From: Planctomycetota bacterium
Lineage (GTDB): Bacteria; Planctomycetota; SZUA-567
Assembly: GCA_020060765.1 (NCBI GenBank)
Contig: JAGUZQ010000106.1
Span: 1-64,000, forward strand
Length of the DNA: 64,000 nt
Reading direction: 5' to 3'
The notes beneath the pieces are model-generated. The model worked only from the letters and a program-made list of their open reading frames with translations. It had not been told where the DNA came from and searched no databases. This document shows, one piece after another, positions 2,467 through 47,240 of this stretch. The stretch's first letter is position 1; the number at the start of each line of letters is the position of its first letter. Position numbers and translations under genes: made by a program.

Positions 2467-3720
2467 TCAGAAGCCTTTTTTCATGTCCGTTGAGCCGCCG
2501 CTGCTGAAATCGGCATATCCTCTTCTCGTCACCGTTCCGTCGAGATAGGCAATGTTTGCGTACATCCCCCCGCCATGCCGGGTGAAGTTGATGAAGTCGA
2601 CATATCCCAAAGCGTACGTGGTCTTCATTTTATTATCGGCAAAGAGAATCGCGACGCTTGGGGTATGCACAGCGCTGCGGCGTTTGATGTAATCCGCTTT
2701 GACTGCGATAGGACTGTAGTCGCCGGTAAGCCAGGTGTTGACGCCGTAGTGGGTGTAGGAATACAGCCCGACATGGTAGTCGCCAAAACCAACCGGTTCC
2801 GACGGGCACATGAAACTATCGGGATAGGTAAACCCGTAATCGAGCGGGCCGACCTTTCCTGCCAGCATGTTGAAGGTATGATGCCAGGCGCTGTAGCCGA
2901 AGATGAGCCAGTCGTTGTAGTCGTCGGAATACTGCGAGGAGGCGAGCCAGAGCTGGCGCATCTGGCTGGAGCATTTCAGATCGCGCGCGGCGCTGAGTGC
3001 GCGCCCCAGCGTCGGCAGCAACATGGCCGAAAGTATGCTGAGAATGGCAATGACCACCAGCAGCTCCACCAGCGTGAAACCGGCGCGCGAACGCAAGCCA
3101 TATCTTTCACGCCGCATCGGCGGCAGGCGGTGCTCCGCCTCCCCTGCCCTACCCTCCGGCACCGGCAGACCCGCGCCGCGCAACTCGCCCGGCGTCACCT
3201 GGTTTCTCTGCAAGGCTTTCGCAATGATTCTTTCCACGCGCTGCTCCTCCTGCGGCAATTCAGACAAATCCAGCAGAGACTGCAAAACGGTTGTTACCCG
3301 CAAAGTCCCCTGCCATTCCCACTGTTCCTTCAACAGATAGCGCTTATGCAGGCGGCATTCGGCGGACGCGCTTTTCTGGAACACTCGCGGCTCGACCGTC
3401 AAGTCCACCGGCGCACACCCGTCGTCGGCCAGCAATCCGTGCAGGCATAGCGCGCTGGCATGGCTGATAACGGCCTGCGCCCTGCCCTTGCGGTCGCAAC
3501 TCCACAGCGACCAGCGCACGCAGCGCGACTGCAGATCGTCGCCATGCCCCGGCAGTCGGTAGATGCCCCGCTCCACACGCTCCCACGAATCGATGGAAGC
3601 CAGCGCCGCCTGTTGCGCGCTTGACAAACCCGCCTCCCGCGCCTGCGAGGCGGTAAGATATCCCGCCTGCCGCGCGGCGTATTGCCTGATGGCCGAACCT
3701 AGTTCCTCGCCCGCTTTCAT
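2467..3720 (-). CDS. AbiEi-like winged-helix domain fused to a prepilin-like protein
   Basis: 417 residues from the ATG at 3720, one base after the TAA of the upstream glycosidase gene, with AAGG about 9 nt before it; a longer frame to 3825 lies inside that gene and is rejected. Residues 1 to about 185 look like the N-terminal winged helix plus following domain of AbiEi-type antitoxins and regulators: GYLTASQAREAG, then WERVERGIYRLPG, then SHASALCLHGL. From residue 202 (MRRERYGLRSRAG) comes a complete type III prepilin signal: basic stretch, G214|F215, FTLVELL with Glu at +5, a hydrophobic helix, then a pilin-like domain ending in a variant of the H-X9-DG motif (His, 11 residues, LDG). No frameshift or stop separates the parts. 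An internal start at Met202 is possible, but no good ribosome binding site precedes it. The combination is unusual. Confidence 0.85.
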   Translation of the reverse strand: MKAGEELGSAIRQYAARQAGYLTASQAREAGLSSAQQAALASIDSWERVERGIYRLPGHGDDLQSRCVRWSLWSCDRKGRAQAVISHASALCLHGLLADDGCAPVDLTVEPRVFQKSASAECRLHKRYLLKEQWEWQGTLRVTTVLQSLLDLSELPQEEQRVERIIAKALQRNQVTPGELRGAGLPVPEGRAGEAEHRLPPMRRERYGLRSRAGFTLVELLVVIAILSILSAMLLPTLGRALSAARDLKCSSQMRQLWLASSQYSDDYNDWLIFGYSAWHHTFNMLAGKVGPLDYGFTYPDSFMCPSEPVGFGDYHVGLYSYTHYGVNTWLTGDYSPIAVKADYIKRRSAVHTPSVAILFADNKMKTTYALGYVDFINFTRHGGGMYANIAYLDGTVTRRGYADFSSGGSTDMKKGF

Positions 3721-3721
3721 T

Positions 3722-6700
3722 TTACTCTGCCTTCTGCCTGACAGCAACGTAAGCGCGGGAAGTTTTTCCCGACGCCAGTTCGCGGACAGTCGCGCTCCAG
3801 ATGCCTTCGGAGTCGTTGGTGGCAAGCCAGACCGTCTTTTTCCATTCCCCGTCGCGCGCGGCGAAATTATCGCTGTATTCGGAAACCGCCCCGTTGGCGT
3901 CGCGCAGGATAAATTCGACCGGAGTAAGTCCCTTGACCGGCTGGCCGTTTTCTCCCAGAATCCGCACGCTTATATCAAAGGCGCCGCCTATTTCCGCCTG
4001 CTCGGGGGCGGCGACGGAAAGCGAATCAATCGGCTCTTCCAGCAAAGCGAACAATCCGGCGGAGGCGGGTGCGTAATCATAAGACCAGGAAATCGCCTCG
4101 CCCTCGCGCTGGAAAGGCACGCTTTCGTGCCGGATCAGATCGTACACCGCCTTGATGTTTGCCGCGCCCGGCACGCGCACCGTCGCCGTCAGCGGCGCGC
4201 CAAGTTCGACAATCGTGCCGAATTTGCGGCCGATTTCTCCCGCAATGCGCTTGTCGTTGACGGCGTAGATAAACCGCTGCCCCTGTCCGCGGCGCTCGGT
4301 GACGATCAGCCACGGATCGGAAGCGACGGCGTTTTCCGCGATGAACGGAGCAAAGACGGAGGAAATTTCCTTCACCGTCTCCCACATTTTCGCCAGCCGC
4401 TCGTCAACCTTGACGCCGCCGCCCTTGCTCACCCCCATCCACGCCCAGTTGGGATAGATCATGTGATCCAGCGACGAGGCAAACTTTTTCACGTTCGGCA
4501 CGGCAAAGCCGAGATTATTGTCAGCCACCACCTGCCCGCCCGCTTCGGCGAAAGAGACGATTTTTTCGTGCGCGGATTTTCCTAAAACTTCGCAGAAAGG
4601 AATAAACAAAGCCTGGTAATTCGCCAAAGCGCCTTCCGCCACGTCTTCCTCGAAGACGACGTCAACCGGCAACCCGGCGCGCAGGAAAGCCTCGTGCCAG
4701 GCAGAGTAAGCCGCTTCCATACACCACTTCTTGTTGGCGTAAGCCTTGGAGAAAAGGCTGTTGGTATAGCTCACCAGGAACGCCACCTTGCGCCGGGGCA
4801 TTTCCGAAGCCGCCATCAGCACCGCGCCGTCGGGCTGCCAGATTTCTTCGTGAAGACGCTTGACCCCTTCCCACCGGTCGAGGTGGGCATGCTCCCGCAT
4901 CCAGCCTGCGTTCCAGTGCCCCACCGCCTTGACCGGGCGGCTGGCGGAGTGCAGCAGACCCAGCCTGATGATGGAAGCGGACGGGCAGAAATCCTCGTCG
5001 CCGATCACCCATTTCTTCCACAATACCTGCACGTAATTGCAGACCTGGCTGTAGCCGCTTTTCTTGCCGATAGCACGCAGCACTTCGATCTTGTAAGGCA
5101 GGGTGAGGGCGTTGGGAGCGGTGTAAGTCCAGTCCCAGGGGTTGAGCCCTTGATGACGGTCGCGAACAAAAGCCATACGCTCACACGGTTCGTGAAAAAG
5201 AAACAGGTCGGGTTTGACGGCGCGTGCGGCGTCGGCCATATCCTTGGCGAGTAAATTGAACCCTTCCCCTTTCAGCCAATACCAGCGATAGAACCGGTAA
5301 GCTTCGTTCGTTTCGTCGACCACGCCGTTTTCCGCCAGTCCAGGCAGATTTTCCGTCGGAAAACCGTACATCTTGGCATAGAGCGGTTTCGGCTCGATGC
5401 CGCATTCTTCTTTGGCGAGTTGCATCCCCAGCGGGGAGAAATCAGGTTCGTTGTGATGTTCGCTCTCGGTGTTTATGTTGAGCAACCTGAACGCCTGATA
5501 ATCCCGGAGGCTTTCGACAGCGGTCTTGATAAAGTTAAGGGAAAACTCCCGAAATCGGGGATTGCGGGGCAATACAGTGCCGGTCTTTTTGCCATCGGCG
5601 GTCTTGCCGTATAGTTCTTCCGGCCAGAATTTCCCATGCCAACTCAGCAGGTTGGGGCCAAAGACAATGCCGTATTTAAGCGCCAGGTCGTAAGAAGAAA
5701 ATAACGCCTCCTTTTTCGCGCTGCTGATTTTTTTCGCCTCCGCTTCTTCCGGAATCGGCAGCCCGTTATGCTCCCAATCCAGTTTCTGCGCGCGGCCGGG
5801 ACCACCGAAAGACATGGTAAAGCCGCGGGAAGCGTATTCCTGACGCTCCTCTTCCTTGCCGCCGCCCGCGCCGTCCCAGGTGAAGTAATTAAATCTTTCC
5901 GGATTCCAGTTGCGGGCGATGCCGATGTAGATTATCTCGCTGCGGCTCAACCCCTCGCGCGGCAACGACAGGCGGGCACGGATCATATATTCGTCACTGC
6001 GTAGCAACCGCGTATCTAGCGGGAAATTGGCGACCTGTTCTTCGCCCGGAGCTATTTTTTCAATCACCCTGTGCAAGTCCGCCACCAGCGGCTTGGCCGG
6101 GGAAGCCGCGTTGGGATTGGCGTTGAACGGAACGAATTCGACATCCAGCATCACCTGTTCGAAAGGAGCAGCGCCGTTATTCCTGATTATAAAAGGCAGG
6201 TTCATCTCGCCGGTATCGCGCAGGAAATACCTCGCCTTGCGTCCGTATGCAAAAGCGAGATCGCGGTGGAATCCCGAACGCTTTCCCTCCGAAACCAGAC
6301 GGGTCACCTTGACATTATCCATCAGTACCTTGCGCCCGATTTCGCCCAGCGCCACCGGCCCCGCGTCGAAGTCTCCCGCCGCCGCCGTCACCACCGGCTG
6401 GCCGTTCAGTGTGCCGGTAATCATGTCACCCAGAACGCTGACGCCGATAATAAAAGGAAATTTTGACAGGTCATGGTTTTCCGATTTCGCCACCACGTAG
6501 CGGACGCCGTCCTTGCAACGCACGATCTGGAGCGTATCGGTTCTGCCTGCCGTTGCCCATTCCAGCGCGTAGTAATTCTTCGGATTCTGGAAACGCGCCG
6601 CCAGAAAAACCGAACCCGCGCCGTCCTGTTCCTCGCTCATCTCGGCGCTGAAGCTGTAATCTGCCCACCACCCCTCCCCCGCCTGCGCCCAGTTTCCCAA

Positions 6701-7786
6701 GCCGTCGGGACCCTCGGAGTCGGACAGGTCGCCGAAACGTCCTCCCATAAAGCTCCATTGCTCGCCCGCGACGACTCGCCACGCTTCCTTTTCGGGATGA
6801 TCGAAATCGCTTTCCAGCAGCGTCTGTCCTTCCAGCAACTGATTGAGAGTCTTGGCCGCGTTTCCGCCGCCGGGTGCGCCGCCGGTTTCCGACGTCAGGT
6901 CGACTCCGGCTGGAAGAGTGGTAGCCAGCCTCGTCAGCGACCCGCCCTTCAAATCCGCCACCAACAACACGCCGGTACGGGCAGGATAGAGCTTGCCTTT
7001 GGAAATTCGCCAGGTCTTAAAGGAATTTTCGCAATCGCCGGTAATGGCAATCGTCGTGCTCCAGGAAAGCCCGCGCCGGTCCTGGTCGAAGGTAACCGGG
7101 AAAGAGGTCTTGCCGTCGATGCGGATGGCTTTGCCGGTTTTGGCGTCTGTCAACGACAGGTTCATCTCGTCATATTGCGCCGAGGTGTTGACCGCCACGC
7201 GCAACTCATCGCCATAAGAAATATATCCGTGACCCGGTTGACCTTCCGGCTGGTTGTCGATGTGCGTAATTTGAAGATGGTCGTTGTCACCTGAAGTCTG
7301 ACGCATCCAGTCGATCCGCGTTTCCTCGCCCGGCTGATTTCCATCCGGCCCGACCACCATCAATGAAAGACAGAAATCACCCTTGGGTCGCGCGAAACCT
7401 CCCTGCCTCAGATCAAGACTTAGCAGACATGGCCCCTTTACGCCGGACGCCAACTCACCGCCGCCCGTGGAGGCGTTACCGAAGCCGATCACTCCGGGCG
7501 CATCCAACAATAACGCCTGAAAATACGGCGCTTTTTCCAAGTCATAAGAAATATAACGCTGCGCCGAGCCCCAACTCCTCTGCCCGATTTCCCGGATCGA
7601 CACCACCCCATCCTTCACCGTCAACGCCACACTCTGCGGATTTCCTTGTCCCCATCCGTCGTGACGATTGTCGTTTAGCTGCAAAATATTGAAATCTTCG
7701 CGCCAGGTTTCATCTTCACCAGCTAAAATAGCGCTGCATATGAACAATGACAGGATAAGCATGATTCCGGCGCGCGCATTTGACAT
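3722..7786 (-). CDS. Large secreted GH42-like beta-galactosidase-type glycosidase
   Basis: 1354 residues with a signal peptide (about residues 1-22, ending ILAG). Two concanavalin/LamG-like beta-sandwich regions follow (about 30-250 and 315-500), then a beta domain. A (beta/alpha)8-like region of clan GH-A type spans about 630-1010 and includes NTESEHHNEPDF and FLFHEPCERM, whose glutamates are candidate acid/base and nucleophile. A flavodoxin-like region resembling the GH42 trimerisation domain (about 1040-1200, AFLVSYTNSLFS to GGQVVADNN) and a C-terminal beta-sandwich complete it. The ribosome binding site AGAGGAG lies just before the ATG. It is the first gene of an operon with the AbiEi-pseudopilin fusion. 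The family link is by architecture and the substrate is unknown; the double carbohydrate-binding-like N-terminus suggests a polymeric glycan. Confidence 0.7.
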   Translation of the reverse strand: MSNARAGIMLILSLFICSAILAGEDETWREDFNILQLNDNRHDGWGQGNPQSVALTVKDGVVSIREIGQRSWGSAQRYISYDLEKAPYFQALLLDAPGVIGFGNASTGGGELASGVKGPCLLSLDLRQGGFARPKGDFCLSLMVVGPDGNQPGEETRIDWMRQTSGDNDHLQITHIDNQPEGQPGHGYISYGDELRVAVNTSAQYDEMNLSLTDAKTGKAIRIDGKTSFPVTFDQDRRGLSWSTTIAITGDCENSFKTWRISKGKLYPARTGVLLVADLKGGSLTRLATTLPAGVDLTSETGGAPGGGNAAKTLNQLLEGQTLLESDFDHPEKEAWRVVAGEQWSFMGGRFGDLSDSEGPDGLGNWAQAGEGWWADYSFSAEMSEEQDGAGSVFLAARFQNPKNYYALEWATAGRTDTLQIVRCKDGVRYVVAKSENHDLSKFPFIIGVSVLGDMITGTLNGQPVVTAAAGDFDAGPVALGEIGRKVLMDNVKVTRLVSEGKRSGFHRDLAFAYGRKARYFLRDTGEMNLPFIIRNNGAAPFEQVMLDVEFVPFNANPNAASPAKPLVADLHRVIEKIAPGEEQVANFPLDTRLLRSDEYMIRARLSLPREGLSRSEIIYIGIARNWNPERFNYFTWDGAGGGKEEERQEYASRGFTMSFGGPGRAQKLDWEHNGLPIPEEAEAKKISSAKKEALFSSYDLALKYGIVFGPNLLSWHGKFWPEELYGKTADGKKTGTVLPRNPRFREFSLNFIKTAVESLRDYQAFRLLNINTESEHHNEPDFSPLGMQLAKEECGIEPKPLYAKMYGFPTENLPGLAENGVVDETNEAYRFYRWYWLKGEGFNLLAKDMADAARAVKPDLFLFHEPCERMAFVRDRHQGLNPWDWTYTAPNALTLPYKIEVLRAIGKKSGYSQVCNYVQVLWKKWVIGDEDFCPSASIIRLGLLHSASRPVKAVGHWNAGWMREHAHLDRWEGVKRLHEEIWQPDGAVLMAASEMPRRKVAFLVSYTNSLFSKAYANKKWCMEAAYSAWHEAFLRAGLPVDVVFEEDVAEGALANYQALFIPFCEVLGKSAHEKIVSFAEAGGQVVADNNLGFAVPNVKKFASSLDHMIYPNWAWMGVSKGGGVKVDERLAKMWETVKEISSVFAPFIAENAVASDPWLIVTERRGQGQRFIYAVNDKRIAGEIGRKFGTIVELGAPLTATVRVPGAANIKAVYDLIRHESVPFQREGEAISWSYDYAPASAGLFALLEEPIDSLSVAAPEQAEIGGAFDISVRILGENGQPVKGLTPVEFILRDANGAVSEYSDNFAARDGEWKKTVWLATNDSEGIWSATVRELASGKTSRAYVAVRQKAE

Positions 7787-40344: not shown

Positions 40345-43086
40345 CTACTTCTCTTTTCTGGCAGCAAGGAATTCCTGCAGAGTTTCCACCGGCGGCAGCG
40401 AATCGCAAGCCACCAGCGTCACCGGTTTCCAGATGCCGCCCATACCGGCGCGATTATAAACCCGCACCGCGACCAGGTTTTTCTCCCCCGGTTTCAGGAA
40501 AGGCTTGGCGTCGAACACGAACGGGCGATCCCAGGTAGCGCCTGCCCCGACTCCGGCGGTTTTGTCGTTATGGGTGAAAGCCGGTTGGCCATTGATAAAC
40601 ACTTCCGCATCCTCGTCCACCGCGCCGAACAATAGCAGCGCGTGCTGGCGTTCCGCGAAAGCGGCGGGAATTTCCAGCGTCTGCCGATACCACCCGTAAC
40701 CGGTGTATTCGGGAAAGCCCTGCGACTCCCAGCCGTTGCCGAGGTCGGAGCGGACTTCCTTCCAGTCGGCGTCGGCGGTTTCAGGCAGATGCCATTTCTT
40801 TTCCAAACCATCCTGCTGCGGCGCAGTGGCGAAACGCCAGGCAGGAGCCAGCGGCAAAACCGCCAGTTTCCCCGCATTTTCAGCTTCGACCAGTTCCGCC
40901 GCGTTGGCGGAGAGTTTCTGATCTTTAAGATCAAGCAAAGGTTTCCACTCCGCCATCAGTTCGTCCCAGGCTTCCTGCGCAATCCGCTGCCAGTGCGGCA
41001 TGAACATATATGGCTTCTTGAAGGCGTAAAAAGCATCCCGGCTGGCGGAAAGTTCCTTCACTTCCGCCTGGATAGCGGCGAGAGCCTCTTTTTGTTTAGC
41101 CTCGTCCTTGCGATTTTCCACCGCGCAGGCATAGCGTTCCAGAATCGTTATCCAGCGTTGCATTATGACGCAACCAGCCAGGAGTTCGGGATTATTCACC
41201 TTTTTCGCGCGCGCGGTCGCCTCCTCGCAGACGGCACGCACCCGAGACATCTCCTCATGCGTGGCGAATTCAAAGCCTTTGTACGGCCAGTTGCCGCCGC
41301 CCTTGCCGGTGAAATATTTGACAATCGGCTTGACTATGGATTCGGTCAAGCTGTTGTTGCCGTGGCCGTTGCTGAAGCCTCGCGCAGCATATTCCGTCAT
41401 GGCGATAATACGCGCTGTTTCCTCCGGTTGGTCGAGGTTTTTCCGCACCGCCCACGCAAGAGCAAATTGCTCGGGAGTGCGACCGTCCCGGTTCCAGAGA
41501 AATTCCGCCATGGCCTGGCCGTTGAAATCGTGCATGTAATGGCTGGATGGCAGATGCTGCACGACGAATTCCATTCCCCTGTCGACCGCCTCCGCCGCCA
41601 GCAGCTTGCAGTACACGGGTGTCTGGAACGGGTACATCATCAGCCCTTGGTAGCAGTGAGATGCGGTAGGGCTGGGAGTTGAACCGACGGTGTAGCCCAT
41701 CCGTTGCATCTCCATCACCGACGGCGGAAGATTGTATTTCTGGAAAGTAGTCTTATAGGTCATGGTGCCGTGATAGAAATTAAGCAGTACATCTTTAGGC
41801 ACGTATTTCAGCAACTCGAGGTTGTAGTCGTAAGAGCCCTGGGTCAAGCCCAGCATGATGCGGAAATTGGGATTAACCTGCTTGGCCTTGGCGTAGGCGT
41901 TCATCAGCAATTCGGTTTCCCGCAGAAACGCCTGGCGCGGGTCGCCTTTGCATTTGGGGCAGTGACAGACGCCGCGAGAGCCTTCGATTTCCGACAGCCA
42001 CAGATCTGCGAAGTCAAACTGCTTGGCGAGGGATACCAGATAGTTATCAAATATTTCATCCATTTTCGGCGCGTTCAGACAGAATACCGGAAACTCCTTG
42101 GCCGCTTTTGCATCCGGAGTCGCGGCAATACCCGGATACTTTTCGACCAGCTTCTTGTTTCGTAGAAAAGGCGCGGTCAGATGACTTGTGCCGGGATAAA
42201 CCCATACTCCGTATTTTTTTCCCAAGCCGATCGTATCCTGGGGAAAATACCATTCCGCCGCCAGGTTTTCATCCTTGTCCAAAACCGGCCTGACCGCCCA
42301 CGCCTCGCAGAGGTTGTATTTCCAGCCGGAAAAATCGCGGATTGTTTTTTCATAGTTAGGGATGTCCTGCTCAACCGGAATGCCCCAATTACGACTAAGC
42401 ACTGTCCACGAGCCGCGCCACTTCACGTCCGGCCAGTCAACGATTTCGATCTCCGGCACGATCAGCCCTTCCTTGCCCGACAAACTGTCCAGCAACTGCC
42501 CGCAAGTCAGCAAGCCGTAATACAAGCCGCTTTCGGCGTTGGCGGCGATGTAGACGGTGGAAACTCCGTCCACCGTTAATGCGCGCAGGATATAAGCCTG
42601 CTCCGGGTTCGGCCTTTCCGCCAGGTATTGCGCGTCGATCAGTCCCTTCTCCGCCGCCTGCTTCAACTCCGGATGGCTGCCGACCAGACCGACCACGATT
42701 TTCCATGTATAAGGCATGGCCAAGTGTTCGTTGCTGTGGTGTAGCGGCGCGAACTTCTCTCCCCACTTGGTCGAGAAATCAGCCAGCATCTGCTTGGTAG
42801 TTTCGTTCTCCCCCAAGTCATGCACCAGCAGCGCCGTATTTGCCTCGACGCCGAACGCGGTGTTGCGCAGGCGCAGTTCCTGCGGCAGGGGAAAGAGGAA
42901 TTGTCTGACTCTCTCCCGCTGCTCGGCAGTAAGTGCGACGGTCTCGATCGCCGCTTGTGGTTTGGCAGTCTCCTGATTCTGTGGTGGAGCGAAAGCCTCT
43001 TCCCCGCATCCTGCGGAGACAGTCGCCAGCAGCAGAAAGGAAAGAACAAAGCCGGGGATGTGTTTTCTGGTTTGATGGTTGCTCAT
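40345..43086 (-). CDS. Lipoprotein GH20/DUF4838-like glycosidase with jelly-roll domain
   Basis: 913 residues with a lipoprotein signal (lipobox VSAGC). An N-terminal GH20b-type alpha/beta domain (about 60-220; YYGLLTCGQLLDSL) leads to a TIM-barrel-like region starting IVDWPDVKWRGSW. This includes WLSEIEGSRGVCHCPKC, where the Cys pair pattern is typical of DUF4838 proteins and the Glu is the candidate acid. The C-terminal part (about 760-890) is a galactose-binding-like jelly roll (LLLFGAVDEDAEVFINGQ). It probably acts on an amino sugar or uronic acid glycan at the surface. It is last in the sigma/FecR-pseudopilin/CE7 operon, 48 bp after the esterase gene. Confidence 0.65.
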   Translation of the reverse strand: MSNHQTRKHIPGFVLSFLLLATVSAGCGEEAFAPPQNQETAKPQAAIETVALTAEQRERVRQFLFPLPQELRLRNTAFGVEANTALLVHDLGENETTKQMLADFSTKWGEKFAPLHHSNEHLAMPYTWKIVVGLVGSHPELKQAAEKGLIDAQYLAERPNPEQAYILRALTVDGVSTVYIAANAESGLYYGLLTCGQLLDSLSGKEGLIVPEIEIVDWPDVKWRGSWTVLSRNWGIPVEQDIPNYEKTIRDFSGWKYNLCEAWAVRPVLDKDENLAAEWYFPQDTIGLGKKYGVWVYPGTSHLTAPFLRNKKLVEKYPGIAATPDAKAAKEFPVFCLNAPKMDEIFDNYLVSLAKQFDFADLWLSEIEGSRGVCHCPKCKGDPRQAFLRETELLMNAYAKAKQVNPNFRIMLGLTQGSYDYNLELLKYVPKDVLLNFYHGTMTYKTTFQKYNLPPSVMEMQRMGYTVGSTPSPTASHCYQGLMMYPFQTPVYCKLLAAEAVDRGMEFVVQHLPSSHYMHDFNGQAMAEFLWNRDGRTPEQFALAWAVRKNLDQPEETARIIAMTEYAARGFSNGHGNNSLTESIVKPIVKYFTGKGGGNWPYKGFEFATHEEMSRVRAVCEEATARAKKVNNPELLAGCVIMQRWITILERYACAVENRKDEAKQKEALAAIQAEVKELSASRDAFYAFKKPYMFMPHWQRIAQEAWDELMAEWKPLLDLKDQKLSANAAELVEAENAGKLAVLPLAPAWRFATAPQQDGLEKKWHLPETADADWKEVRSDLGNGWESQGFPEYTGYGWYRQTLEIPAAFAERQHALLLFGAVDEDAEVFINGQPAFTHNDKTAGVGAGATWDRPFVFDAKPFLKPGEKNLVAVRVYNRAGMGGIWKPVTLVACDSLPPVETLQEFLAARKEK

Positions 43087-43134: not shown

Positions 43135-45096
43135 TCATTCCGCAAGCAAATACTTGGCGATCCACTCGGCTTTTACCTTGATAAAATCCGGCCCCTGGAC
43201 GCAGTGGAATCCCAGCGGGTAACAGAACTGGCGTTTCTCGATATCGCCCAGGTTGTTGTACATCGCTGCAATACCTTCTGGAACCGTGCAGTAATCCGTG
43301 AATCCATTGCTCACCAGTACGGGGCATTTTATCATCGGCGCAAAGTTGGCCATGTCGAAGTAGCGCATCACCCCCAGGACTTTCTCGCGGGAGAGTTCTG
43401 GCTTGGCTTTGGCCATCTGCAGGAAACTCGGAAAATGAGAGATTGAAATATCGCAGGTGATCTCGTAGGCGCAGAAGGCGGGCGTCACCGATATTGCCAG
43501 GCATATTCGCTTGTTCAGCGCCGGGGTAACCAGCGCCGCCCCGCCGCCCTGCGAGCCACCAGATATCCCGATGCGTTCAGCGTTGATGTCTGGACGCTCT
43601 GCCAGATATTCCACCACCCGGTATAAATCCTGGAAAGCGTTACGGTGATAATAGGTTTCCTTACTTTCCAGTCCCATGTTCAAAAGATAGGTTTCGTAAT
43701 CGTGGAGTTCCCGGCTGTGACCCTGTCCCCGCATGTTATGGGCATAGGTTGCCAACCCCTGCCCGCTCATGTCGACAGGCTCGCATCCCCCACGATTAGA
43801 GCCGGTATAGCCGTGGACTATGATCAGGCAGGGGAAAGGCTTGCCGTCGGCGCGTTTGGGAGGCAACGTCAGAAAGCCAACCGTGGGTATCCCGTCAGCC
43901 CCGTTCAACACCAATCGGTAAACCCGGCTGCCGTTAGGATTTTCGCGCAGCAACTTTTCTTCCGGTCGGATCGGGATCGCGTCTGATTCCCGGATCACCC
44001 CGTCCCAGAATTTCTTGAAATCCTCCGGCGGGAGTTCCTGCATGGTGTTGGTCAGAATGCCGCCGGGGATGGGAAAAAACTGCTGGCGGCTCGCGAAAGG
44101 ATAATATGTGTCCCTTACCTTGACAACACCCTTTACCTTCAGCACTTTTCGCGCCCATCGAGGCAACAGCGCCTCTTCCGGAATACGGTTGTCGCCGTTA
44201 TGCAACGTGTCCAGTTTTACCGTGAAAGCCTGTTCCGGTTCCTGCTTGGGCGTGAAAACAATTTCCGCTGTCGCCATTTTCTCCCATGCCGGATTGATAG
44301 TGAGATTCAGCGATACAAAACCGCCTTCGTCATAATCCATCACCACGTCCGGGATAAATCCGAAAGACGAGTTCCAGATTTCCGCCGTTCCCGGCTGTTC
44401 ATCTGCTACGCAGGTGGCAAAGGTGGATTGCCGATTGTAATCGTAACCGGCGGGGGAATAAAATTGTTTTTGCACGCCGCCGTCCCGGTCGTTAATGCCG
44501 ACGGCAAGGCGTACAGGCTCCTGGGGAGCGGAACCGTTTTCCCGCAGCAAGGCCCACGGCAGGAGAATTTCATAAACAGACTTGTTTCCGTTGCGGGTGA
44601 ATCTGACGTCTGCCAGCGCCAGCCTGTCCAGCATAAGTTGGGTTGCGTCCGCCAACGTGACCTTTACCGGTATGTCACGCAAGCGCTTGCCGGAATTTTT
44701 GGAATACCACTCCGCGCGACCCTTGCCGTTCCAGTCGAAAAAGACGAACTGCTGTTCCTCAAACCAGAATTCGACCGAATCGTAAAGATACGGTTCCCGC
44801 TCTCCCTCGCCCGGATTGCCGGAGGGCGGCGCATGTTCCGTATCTGCGGTTTCCACCTTCAGCAACAGCCCCGCCTGCCGCCAGGCGATTTTGAACCAGG
44901 CTTCGTAATCGGCGTATTTTTCGCCGGAGCGGCATTTGTCGATCGGTATAGCGGGAATGCTTTCCCATGTTTCCGGAGAGACGGCATCACTGCCCTGCCC
45001 AGTTATTTTCTTGATCTTGTAGTTTTCCGGTTCCCCTGCCGCCGCAACCGAGTAACCCAGGCTGAGCGCCATTGCGTAAATTATGATGAAGCGCAT
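43135..45096 (-). CDS. Secreted CE7-type acetyl esterase with CBM9-like N-terminus
   Basis: 653 residues from ATG 45096 (GGAGAAT 7 nt upstream); a TTG at 45108 is rejected. Signal peptide about 1-20. Residues about 30-260 resemble a CBM9/DOMON carbohydrate-binding domain (DYEAWFKIAWRQAGLLLKVE, EFWFEEQQ). The C-terminal alpha/beta-hydrolase (about 350-650) is like acetyl xylan esterase CE7: nucleophile in GISGGSQGGG, Asp in NGFTDYCTVPEG, His in GFHCVQGP. It would remove acetyl groups from a glycan in the periplasm. Same operon as the GH20-like enzyme. Confidence 0.8.
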   Translation of the reverse strand: MRFIIIYAMALSLGYSVAAAGEPENYKIKKITGQGSDAVSPETWESIPAIPIDKCRSGEKYADYEAWFKIAWRQAGLLLKVETADTEHAPPSGNPGEGEREPYLYDSVEFWFEEQQFVFFDWNGKGRAEWYSKNSGKRLRDIPVKVTLADATQLMLDRLALADVRFTRNGNKSVYEILLPWALLRENGSAPQEPVRLAVGINDRDGGVQKQFYSPAGYDYNRQSTFATCVADEQPGTAEIWNSSFGFIPDVVMDYDEGGFVSLNLTINPAWEKMATAEIVFTPKQEPEQAFTVKLDTLHNGDNRIPEEALLPRWARKVLKVKGVVKVRDTYYPFASRQQFFPIPGGILTNTMQELPPEDFKKFWDGVIRESDAIPIRPEEKLLRENPNGSRVYRLVLNGADGIPTVGFLTLPPKRADGKPFPCLIIVHGYTGSNRGGCEPVDMSGQGLATYAHNMRGQGHSRELHDYETYLLNMGLESKETYYHRNAFQDLYRVVEYLAERPDINAERIGISGGSQGGGAALVTPALNKRICLAISVTPAFCAYEITCDISISHFPSFLQMAKAKPELSREKVLGVMRYFDMANFAPMIKCPVLVSNGFTDYCTVPEGIAAMYNNLGDIEKRQFCYPLGFHCVQGPDFIKVKAEWIAKYLLAE

Positions 45097-45141
45097 GAGA
45101 TTCTCCAATCCAATAAAATCAATCAGAACGGAACTGGCTAT

Positions 45142-46143
45142 TTACGGCGTCGTCACCCCAATCTTTCCGGTCAGTCTCGGAATAACCCAATCCGGGGCAT
45201 TGCCGGGCGAAGCCCATATGTCGTCCAGAGATGTTTTCAGGTGCTTGGCGTGACCGCCCACGAACAGGACATTGACCCCGCCGGGGTGGGGCATCCAGTA
45301 ATCAGCCACTACCTGTTTATAAAATCCCCACATGTCGACCAGTAACCAGCGATCTGGCGAATTGGCGCTCAGTCGCGCTCGCATCACCGCCAGCTGTGCG
45401 GGATTGAGGGTTTCCGTCCTGTTAACAGTCCACTCGCACCACCGCGTCCAGTAATTGTTATGAGATTGCGTGCCGGTCGGGCTCCAGCCATAAACTTTCG
45501 TGCCATTCCTGCCGCTGTAGCTTAAATCCCCGGGTTGACCAAACGCGGTGCTTTTCGTCACTTGATTGCTGCGGCTGGGACAGTAAAAAACCTTGCCGTC
45601 GTTCAGGTAACCGGAGCCATACAGGCTGCCGAAGCCTTGCCAGCGGGAAATATGGCACAATCCAAATCCCGGAGCCACAGCCGCAGGTGGATTACCCTCG
45701 GCCTCGTATTGTCTCGGCGGCTGGCGACCGAAATCGCCGTCGTACATGGAATAGGCGCAATACTGCTGTTTCATGTTATTGATGCAAGCCACCTGCGTAG
45801 CCATGCTGATAGCCTTTCCCAACGTCGGCAGCAGCAGCGCTCCGAGAATGGAAAGGATAGCGACAGCCACCAGCAATTCCACCAGGGTAAAGGCGGCATT
45901 GGATTGCCGTCGCCAGGAGTTAACCCCGGAATTCATCCCGGATTCGCGACTGGCGTAAATCACCTTGCCTTCCTCGCGGTTAAGCCGGCAGGATTGCCTG
46001 AACTCCGCCTCTTCCCTCGCCATTCTCAACAAACCGCGCCGCGCCTCCCGGCTGGAGCGCAGGCACAGGTTCAGTTCGCCGACGCTTGCAACCGAAACCA
46101 TGCCGTCGAGATAATCGCGCATCAGGCTGTACTCTCGGTTCAT
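45142..46143 (-). CDS. FecR-like N-terminal domain fused to a prepilin-like protein
   Basis: 333 residues. The ATG at 46143 overlaps the sigma factor TGA by four bases, so the two are translationally coupled. Residues 1 to about 55 have the anti-sigma/FecR N-terminal pattern (MRDYLDGMVSVASVGELNL, CLRSSREARRGLLRMA). A basic linker (NSWRRQSNA) leads to the type III prepilin signal A84|F85, FTLVELLVAVAILSILGALL, then a pilin-like domain that ends with PHPGGVNVLFVGGHA, a variant of the H-X9-DG motif. There is no FecR ligand domain. Thus a regulatory leader of about 84 residues replaces the usual short leader. Met70 could be an internal start but has no ribosome binding site. Confidence 0.85.
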   Translation of the reverse strand: MNREYSLMRDYLDGMVSVASVGELNLCLRSSREARRGLLRMAREEAEFRQSCRLNREEGKVIYASRESGMNSGVNSWRRQSNAAFTLVELLVAVAILSILGALLLPTLGKAISMATQVACINNMKQQYCAYSMYDGDFGRQPPRQYEAEGNPPAAVAPGFGLCHISRWQGFGSLYGSGYLNDGKVFYCPSRSNQVTKSTAFGQPGDLSYSGRNGTKVYGWSPTGTQSHNNYWTRWCEWTVNRTETLNPAQLAVMRARLSANSPDRWLLVDMWGFYKQVVADYWMPHPGGVNVLFVGGHAKHLKTSLDDIWASPGNAPDWVIPRLTGKIGVTTP

Positions 46144-46673
46144 TTTACATTCTCCCCCAGCTTAAGATTCTTTTCCACGCACCGGCGCAGGCCATCCCTG
46201 GTACGTTGCAAAACCATCTGCACCGCGCCGGTGCTGCGATCAAACCTATCCGCGATTTTGCCTATCGCCTCGTTTTCCTCATATCTTGCCCGGAAAATCT
46301 CCGCCGCCTGTCCTTTCAGGCTTTTAATACATTTGCGCAAGGCCGGAAGTTTATCGTTGGCAGAGGCATATTCCTCCGCCGCATCCTCGGCCATCAGGGC
46401 AATGACGTCCGGCGACAGAATTTCCTTTCTTTTTGCCTGTTTTTCCCGCCATTTGAGGCATTCCAGCCGCGCCACTCCCAGCGCCCACGCGATAAAAGGG
46501 CGGGACTGGTCGTAAGCCGCGAATTTTTCCCATAACACGCAGGAAACTTCCTGAAACAAATCCTCGGCCGAGTTCGCATCCCCGCATATCGCCAGGAGAT
46601 AACCCCGGATACGGTCTTCGGTTTCGACGAAATTCCGGATAAAGCTTCTGTGGGCAGTTTCATTCATAGCCAT
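46140..46673 (-). CDS. ECF-type RNA polymerase sigma factor
   Basis: 177 residues. Region 2 lies at about 10-80 (FIRNFVETEDRIRGYLLAI, NSAEDLFQEVSCVLWEKF, IAWALGVARLECLKW) and region 4 at about 110-170 (FRARYEENEAIGKIADRFD, STGAVQMVLQRTRDGL), typical of the sigma-70 family seen with FecR-like proteins in Planctomycetes and relatives. Its stop overlaps the FecR-pseudopilin gene by ATGA. It probably directs transcription of its own operon with the CE7 and GH20-like enzymes. The other frame-start Met at residue 3 is equally possible. Confidence 0.9.
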   Translation of the reverse strand: MAMNETAHRSFIRNFVETEDRIRGYLLAICGDANSAEDLFQEVSCVLWEKFAAYDQSRPFIAWALGVARLECLKWREKQAKRKEILSPDVIALMAEDAAEEYASANDKLPALRKCIKSLKGQAAEIFRARYEENEAIGKIADRFDRSTGAVQMVLQRTRDGLRRCVEKNLKLGENVK

Positions 46674-46696: not shown

Positions 46697-47240
46697 ATGA
46701 TCACGGTTTTTTTTTTGATTTTCAGCGACTTGAAAGATTATCAGGTCGATCAAGTGTTTCTGGAAAAGGGCGAGTCTGCGAAAACAGCCGACAGAACGCA
46801 GTTGAAAGCGGCTCTGGCTTACGTCGCAGCCAAGGGCGATATTGATGTTTTTCTGGTTCACAAACTCGACCGCGCCGCGCGGCAGAGTTTGGATTACCAT
46901 ATGATCGTCGCCACGTTGATGGCGGCGGGGTGTAAGCTGGTCAGCGCAACCGAGCAATTCGACAATGAAACGCCTTCGGGGCGGTTCATGGGCGGCATTC
47001 TTGCCCTGCAAGCGCAATTCGATAACGAGGTCAGAACTGAGCGATGTAAAAGCGGCATGATTGAATCGGTCAAGCGCGGTTGTTGGATGTGGACGGCTCT
47101 GGATTCAAAACCGGTAAGACGCGGGACGGACATGCGACCCTTTATCATGATCCGGTGATGGCTCCAATTCAAAGCCTGTGGTGTCCGGAAGGAATTTTGT
47201 TTGAAAAATCCAAGCCAGTTAGAACCCGCTTAATAATAAA
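46697..47240 (+). pseudogene. Truncated, frameshifted serine recombinase (resolvase) remnant
   Basis: The frame at 46697-47158 contains the middle of a serine recombinase (DVFLVHKLDRAARQSLDYHM, KLVSATEQFDNETPSGRF, FDNEVRTERCKSGMIESVKR). The N-terminal 50 or so residues with the catalytic Ser and arginines are missing: 46674-46700 leads directly into the neighbouring sigma gene. After VKRGCWMWTA the matching continuation (GFKTGKTRDGHATLYHDP) is in another frame, so there is a frameshift near 47095, and the match ends near 47175. A perfect 8-bp inverted repeat, CGCCAGCA/TGCTGGCG, lies at 47243-47272. It marks the decayed left border of the prophage. Confidence 0.8.

Follow-up and report, generated by a model that had tools for sequence, protein, structure and literature searches.

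Regulator domains fused to prepilins in glycan-linked operons of a Planctomycetota bacterium

ToxR and CadC consist of a cytosolic DNA-binding domain, one membrane helix and an extracytoplasmic domain, and a layout of this kind is predicted for two proteins, here called fusion A and fusion B, that are encoded on a stretch of 64,000 nucleotides (the window: positions 1 to 64,000 of contig JAGUZQ010000106.1, assembly GCA_020060765.1) from a Planctomycetota bacterium; only in the fusions does the helix carry a prepilin cut site, at the junction with the regulator domain. Other regulators are freed by a protease: the anti-sigma factor RsiP is cut by signal peptidase (PMC8844934) and cutting of RseA exposes a degron (PMC10202637). 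The fusions would share the protease-freed logic of RsiP/RsiV (signal peptidase) and RseA (DegS/RseP, then ClpXP), with the differences that the candidate protease is prepilin peptidase, that the cut would be on the cytosolic side and that no site-1/site-2 pair is implied (PMC8844934, PMC10202637). By analogy the arrangement resembles the membrane-held, protease-released regulators, with an anchor and a candidate protease that are not known in that role. With regard to the pilin part, DUF1559 (N_methyl/SBP_bac_10) proteins are expanded in Planctomycetales (PMC8567305), and the proteins considered here are like those in the available part of that account in their number, about 100 prepilin-like proteins per genome, their weak SBP_bac_10 similarity and their genome-wide spread, whereas no regulator heads are described in that part of the account. 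No published description of a regulator-prepilin fusion was found in the open-access literature, subscription papers and preprints being outside the scope of the search; the architecture is well supported and is undescribed in the literature that was searched.

The genome from which the window comes (G000, a 4.8 Mb draft) contains 100 prepilin motifs that match PF07963. When the DNA surrounding each match was taken and the open frame ahead of the motif measured, 39 of the 100 were found to have an AbiEi-like domain in frame before the cut site, in a stretch of 198-415 amino acids, and of the 27 PF13338 matches in the genome only one does not share a frame with a prepilin motif. A further 10 prepilins lie directly downstream of TIGR02989-like sigma genes, 24 of which are present in G000, and have leaders of about 50-130 amino acids as measured from the preceding stop. 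Both kinds of leader are too long to be the short leaders of type IV prepilins; both window proteins have the Glu at +5, the hydrophobic helix and the FTLVEL(L) junction of the N_methyl family. The architecture is not due to chance, as 49 of the 100 prepilins are regulator-linked, on many contigs, and it recurs in related genomes. All of this expands on an earlier note made from the letters of the window, which had described a regulator domain joined to a prepilin in two operons, unrelated regulator domains in the two and a cut site exactly between regulator and helix; each of these points was confirmed at both loci, and the survey that the note had proposed, of leaders over 60 residues and their neighbours, found regulator leaders recurring beside glycan genes and not random leaders lacking such linkage. 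The genome also encodes two A24 prepilin peptidases (Peptidase_A24) and has 13 T2SSE matches for the secretion ATPase; one of the two peptidase matches (G000:C74:4510-4830) is ~2 kb from a sigma-prepilin operon. Two artefacts were considered and ruled out, a two-genome chimera in view of the many contigs that carry fusions and of their recurrence in the related genomes G028 and G027, with other heads in G028 and G014, and recoding or missed stops because the frames are open without stops.

On the reading that we favour, and regard as slightly better than an even bet, operon regulators are here built as cleavable prepilin leaders that are detached by prepilin peptidase. The cytosolic head (AbiEi, anti-sigma with an ECF sigma factor encoded upstream, GntR or GntR-LacI) would control its own operon, usually as the first gene, and the prepilin helix would place the fusion in the inner membrane with the head inside and the pilin body outside. 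Prepilin peptidase would then cut the G/A↓F junction (the arrow marks the predicted cut here and below) and detach the head, and operon control would thereby be coupled to the insertion and processing of the pilin. In the anti-sigma version the -AA or -AG C-terminus remaining after the cut could be a protease signal, freeing the sigma factor. We infer from the sequences that the heads bind DNA or sigma factors, that cleavage occurs and that it has a consequence. Cleavage may be "gated", as the earlier note proposed, or constitutive, and the pilin part, which the note took for a common membrane sensor or anchor, may sense glycans; the note's interpretation is thus supported in part.

Locus A runs from 7786 to 2467 of the window on the minus strand:
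3722 to 7786, minus strand: GH42-like secreted enzyme (PF08532, E=3e-9)
2467 to 3720, minus strand: fusion A, AbiEi repressor head and prepilin (PF13338, AbiEi_4, E=5e-8; PF07963, N_methyl, E=2e-8, over the cut-off)
3151 to 3720, minus strand: head of fusion A, residues 1-190, AbiEi fold (AlphaFold model; Foldseek)

The GH42-like gene is directly upstream of fusion A, the ATG of which sits one base after the stop of the former; the first TTG, at 3825, is probably not the start. The AlphaFold model of fusion A has a mean confidence (pLDDT) of 84, with blocks of the head mostly at 91-98 (83 for the first block), a disordered linker (~191-213) that ends at the cut, and a confident helix after it. 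The junction reads RSRAG↓FTLVELL, which places the predicted cut between 3079 and 3078. The head has the AbiEi_4 winged helix and the two-domain fold of AbiEi; the top Foldseek match of the model is the AbiEi antitoxin 6y8q (E=2e-5), and a profile of the AbiEi heads matches the PDB structures of AbiEi 6y8q and 9hlo. Locus A is atypical since it is the sole exception among the 39 AbiEi fusions in that the enzyme gene precedes the fusion; the other 38 come first in their unit, ahead of the enzyme.

AbiEi proteins are DNA-binding autorepressors; the Streptococcus protein has inverted repeats as binding sites and is the repressor of the operon that encodes it (PMC7319586). The heads resemble the AbiEi antitoxin of the type IV toxin-antitoxin system AbiE in the fold of an N-terminal winged helix and a C-terminal domain, and differ from it in having no AbiEii, in being fused to a prepilin and in heading glycan operons in ~40 copies (PMC3985639, PMC7319586). 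The AbiEi domain occurs in about 27 others of 392 genomes of the phylum, mostly as proteins of 200-240 amino acids, with one or two per genome. Two of the unfused homologues have a confirmed AbiEii as neighbour, and several more have neighbours that look similar; in G017 an AbiEi-like gene is followed by an AbiEii-like gene without a prepilin. A profile search found no AbiEii toxin gene (PF08843) in G000. Given that unfused homologues in the phylum adjoin AbiEii while G000 has none, the probable origin of the head is a toxin-antitoxin pair in which the toxin disappeared and the antitoxin went on to multiply in front of prepilins, presumably in that order. One decayed AbiEi head with three internal stops is found at G000:C54:11554-11784. 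Such a decayed copy, and the derivation from type IV toxin-antitoxin loci itself, would be expected if the heads were relict or selfish domains, frozen in frame and functionless, but we find this scarcely credible when the heads are intact in 39 copies at ~37% median identity, G000 has no toxin to go with them and unrelated heads recur.

Locus B runs from 46673 to 40345 of the window, again on the minus strand:
46140 to 46673, minus strand: ECF sigma factor, TIGR02989 (Rhodopirellula/Verrucomicrobium family; NCBIfam 133.2 bits against a cut-off of 124.55)
45142 to 46143, minus strand: fusion B, anti-sigma-like leader and prepilin, 333 amino acids (N_methyl, PF07963, E=4e-7, over the cut-off)
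45988 to 46140, minus strand: leader of fusion B, residues 2-52, FecR-type anti-sigma domain (hhalign; predicted structure)
43135 to 45108, minus strand: CE7-type acetyl esterase, secreted, with a signal-like N-terminal stretch (AXE1, E=9e-41)
40345 to 43086, minus strand: lipoprotein-like, GH20 domain 2 and GH2 sugar-binding domain (PF02838, E=1e-7; PF02837, E=2e-11)

The start of fusion B overlaps the stop of the sigma gene (ATGA), its junction reads SNAA↓FTLVELL with the predicted cut between 45892 and 45891, the CE7 gene begins 33 base pairs downstream of it and the last gene of the list follows. The leader is predicted as three helices (pLDDT about 85); the body is poorly modelled (pLDDT 49) and interpretation of the model is limited to the head. 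CE7 and GH20-like enzymes had been named as the partners at this locus: the CE7 assignment stands, and for GH20 the Pfam domain search detected domain 2 and no GH20 catalytic domain in the gene at 43086-40345. A resolvase N-terminal domain (PF00239, E=4e-24) is encoded at 46697-47158 on the opposite strand and adjoins the sigma gene.

The described system closest to locus B is the pair of an ECF sigma factor and a FecR-type anti-sigma factor, which it resembles in the TIGR02989 sigma factor, the tight overlap of the genes and the N-terminal anti-sigma domain, and from which it differs in that a prepilin helix and pilin body replace the transmembrane helix and FecR domain. Canonical FecR-type anti-sigma factors encoded behind sigma genes in the same class served as the reference, and five of the ten sigma-linked leaders align with their N-termini (hhalign E=1.5e-10, score 49, the best of 100 column shuffles scoring 15); the other five are shorter and without family assignment. 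The tight layout behind the sigma gene is common to the sigma-linked prepilins and many canonical sigma/FecR-type units of the class, the latter having a transmembrane helix and FecR domain where the fusions have prepilin and pilin body. No sigma-prepilin pairs were seen among 15 sigma loci examined in relatives.

The position of the AbiEi fusions suits a regulator of the operon, as 38 of 39 are the first gene of their unit, and the median gap upstream of them is 418 base pairs against 65 for all genes. Secreted glycan enzymes had been anticipated as partners, and in 34 of 38 AbiEi fusions the next large gene on the same strand does carry a glycan-related Pfam domain (E<=0.001; about 30 are over the curated cut-off), the domains including GH42, GH20, GH123, GH2, GHL10, DUF4838, heparinase and CBM9, as do the partners of 6 of the 10 sigma-linked prepilins. 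In a rough control, 22 large genes that lie over 6 kb away from every prepilin yielded one GH42 among the matches listed, for 25 of the 83 families and with control genes that are shorter than the partner genes. In G028 the next open frame after an AbiEi fusion usually opens with a signal-like sequence. Upstream of the AbiEi fusions, inverted repeats show a small excess only (6 against 2 expected). The near-palindromic AAAGTGACCACCTT occurs exactly upstream of two related heads, and only there in 1.2 Mb, and with one mismatch upstream of a third (the sites precede G000:C54:6113, C123:22520 and C117:24028); as a motif picked after looking at the data, it is a possible operator.

Related genomes show the same construction with other heads. 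In G028, which belongs to another genus of the same family as G000, there are at least 18 AbiEi-prepilin fusions, and in G027 there is one; a class-wide habit was ruled out, the AbiEi fusion being confined to G000, G028 and G027 among 29 genomes of the class. G028 also has a prepilin headed by a GntR winged helix (PF00392, E=1.4e-13), with QAA↓F as the junction and with genes for GH71 and GH42 behind it. G014 represents a genus that has 105 prepilins and lacks the AbiEi fusion. In one of its proteins a GntR domain, matching YvoA (E=3.5e-10), and a LacI-type ligand-binding domain, matching PurR (E=2.5e-27), precede a prepilin with the junction KRA↓F, and by inspection the neighbours of this protein resemble secreted glycan enzymes. 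Regulator heads on prepilins are therefore of at least four unrelated kinds, AbiEi, anti-sigma, GntR and GntR-LacI. It might be supposed that the head acts on the pilin and not on DNA, a bulky leader barring assembly of the prepilin until it is removed; the leader does stand exactly ahead of the cut and the linkers are positively charged, as in ordinary leaders, but it would then be an odd accident that every one of the four recruited families is a family of transcription regulators, and there would be nothing for the sigma gene to do, so that we consider this very improbable. At 8064-8697 of contig C110 of G028 an AbiEi head and a prepilin are adjacent in different frames, through a frameshift or a sequencing error. 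Contig scans gave no match for one query, and for a G028 fusion its own record only.

A tree of the pilin bodies mixes those of fused, sigma-linked and headless proteins, its supported branches alone requiring at least 4 changes of the AbiEi label, and identity within one subgroup is 58% between heads and 28% between bodies. On these grounds heads and bodies behave as separable modules, the bodies diverging and swapping heads. In G000 contig C32 (motifs at 4481 and 6096) two tandem prepilins have closely similar bodies, only one being AbiEi-headed, and the headless one keeps a similar linker just ahead of its cut. Strongly diverging bodies below conserved heads are what would be expected of sensor domains, and anti-sigma heads normally belong to membrane sensors such as FecR, both of which fit a membrane-tethered one-component regulator of the ToxR/CadC kind, in which the body would sense outside, the head would act at the membrane, and cleavage would be of secondary importance or serve to switch the regulator off. 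Alone, this leaves unexplained the retention of G/A at the cut in all fusions and its frequent loss in other prepilins, and we think it quite improbable.

The residue at -1 of the predicted cut is G or A in 49 of 49 regulator-linked prepilins and in 24 of 51 others in G000 (Fisher p=1.5e-10), R or K being frequent there among the others, and in 18 of 18 AbiEi fusions and 11 of 32 of the rest in G028 (p=2.4e-6; 11 further matches without a recognisable motif are omitted), p-values that do not refer to independent events as paralogues share ancestry; the single fusion of G027 has S. Retention of G/A in the fused proteins and its loss in many others would be explained if the head came free only through cutting. 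In 10 of 10 sigma-linked and 26 of 39 AbiEi fusions of G000 the part ahead of the cut would end in -AA or -AG, and Ala at -2 is found in 1 of 51 others; in the sigma-linked prepilins, with Ala at -2 in 10/10 and ends in -AA in 7/10, a C-terminal degron after the predicted cutting is possible. About half of the headless G000 prepilins are without G/A at -1, and many of these may never be processed. What is established comprises the architecture and its repetition with unrelated heads, the retained cut site, the glycan linkage and the presence of genes for prepilin peptidase and secretion ATPase.

A strict G/A at -1 would equally be expected of a constitutive polyprotein that is always cut, yielding a pilin that serves the enzymes as a usual pseudopilin or adhesin and a head that is a free, equimolar autoregulator, with no signal across the membrane. 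The GntR-LacI head, which has its own ligand-binding domain, fits this, as do the headless prepilins, 40 of 50 of which also have a large gene on the same strand closely downstream, so that the pairing of pilin and enzyme may predate the heads. Against it, a plain two-gene operon would achieve the same output, and anti-sigma domains are normally membrane-anchored, such that recurrent membrane-joined heads suggest that tethering matters; we take this possibility seriously and consider it rather unlikely.

Several points weigh against cleavable regulator leaders. Prepilin peptidase is generally considered constitutive, and leaders of 200-400 amino acids far exceed, to our knowledge, any that are processed. 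An anti-sigma domain, once released, would go on binding its sigma factor unless degraded, and Ala at -2 is rare in the AbiEi fusions of G028 (3/18). No clear common operator was found upstream of the AbiEi fusions. The paralogues are not statistically independent, and an independent-pairs test on the body tree, with four supported pairs, had no power. Finally, what supports cleavage, DNA binding and regulation is sequence and not experiment.

A more far-reaching form of the cleavable leader would make prepilin peptidase a signalling protease, with glycan-dependent exposure of the junction releasing repressors or destabilising anti-sigma factors and the interchangeable heads, with their divergent pilin bodies, acting as private glycan-sensing switches; this is unlikely. 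The LacI-type ligand-binding domain of the GntR-LacI head speaks against the pilin body being necessarily the sensor, or the sole one.

Glycan enzymes abound in many members of the phylum, as do pilin-like proteins of unexplained role, and fusions at the trimming site give such pilin-like proteins a role that can be tested. They suggest a new part for prepilin peptidase in bacterial signalling, that of a releasing protease, and document a toxin-antitoxin repressor that was probably co-opted as an operon regulator and multiplied about forty-fold.

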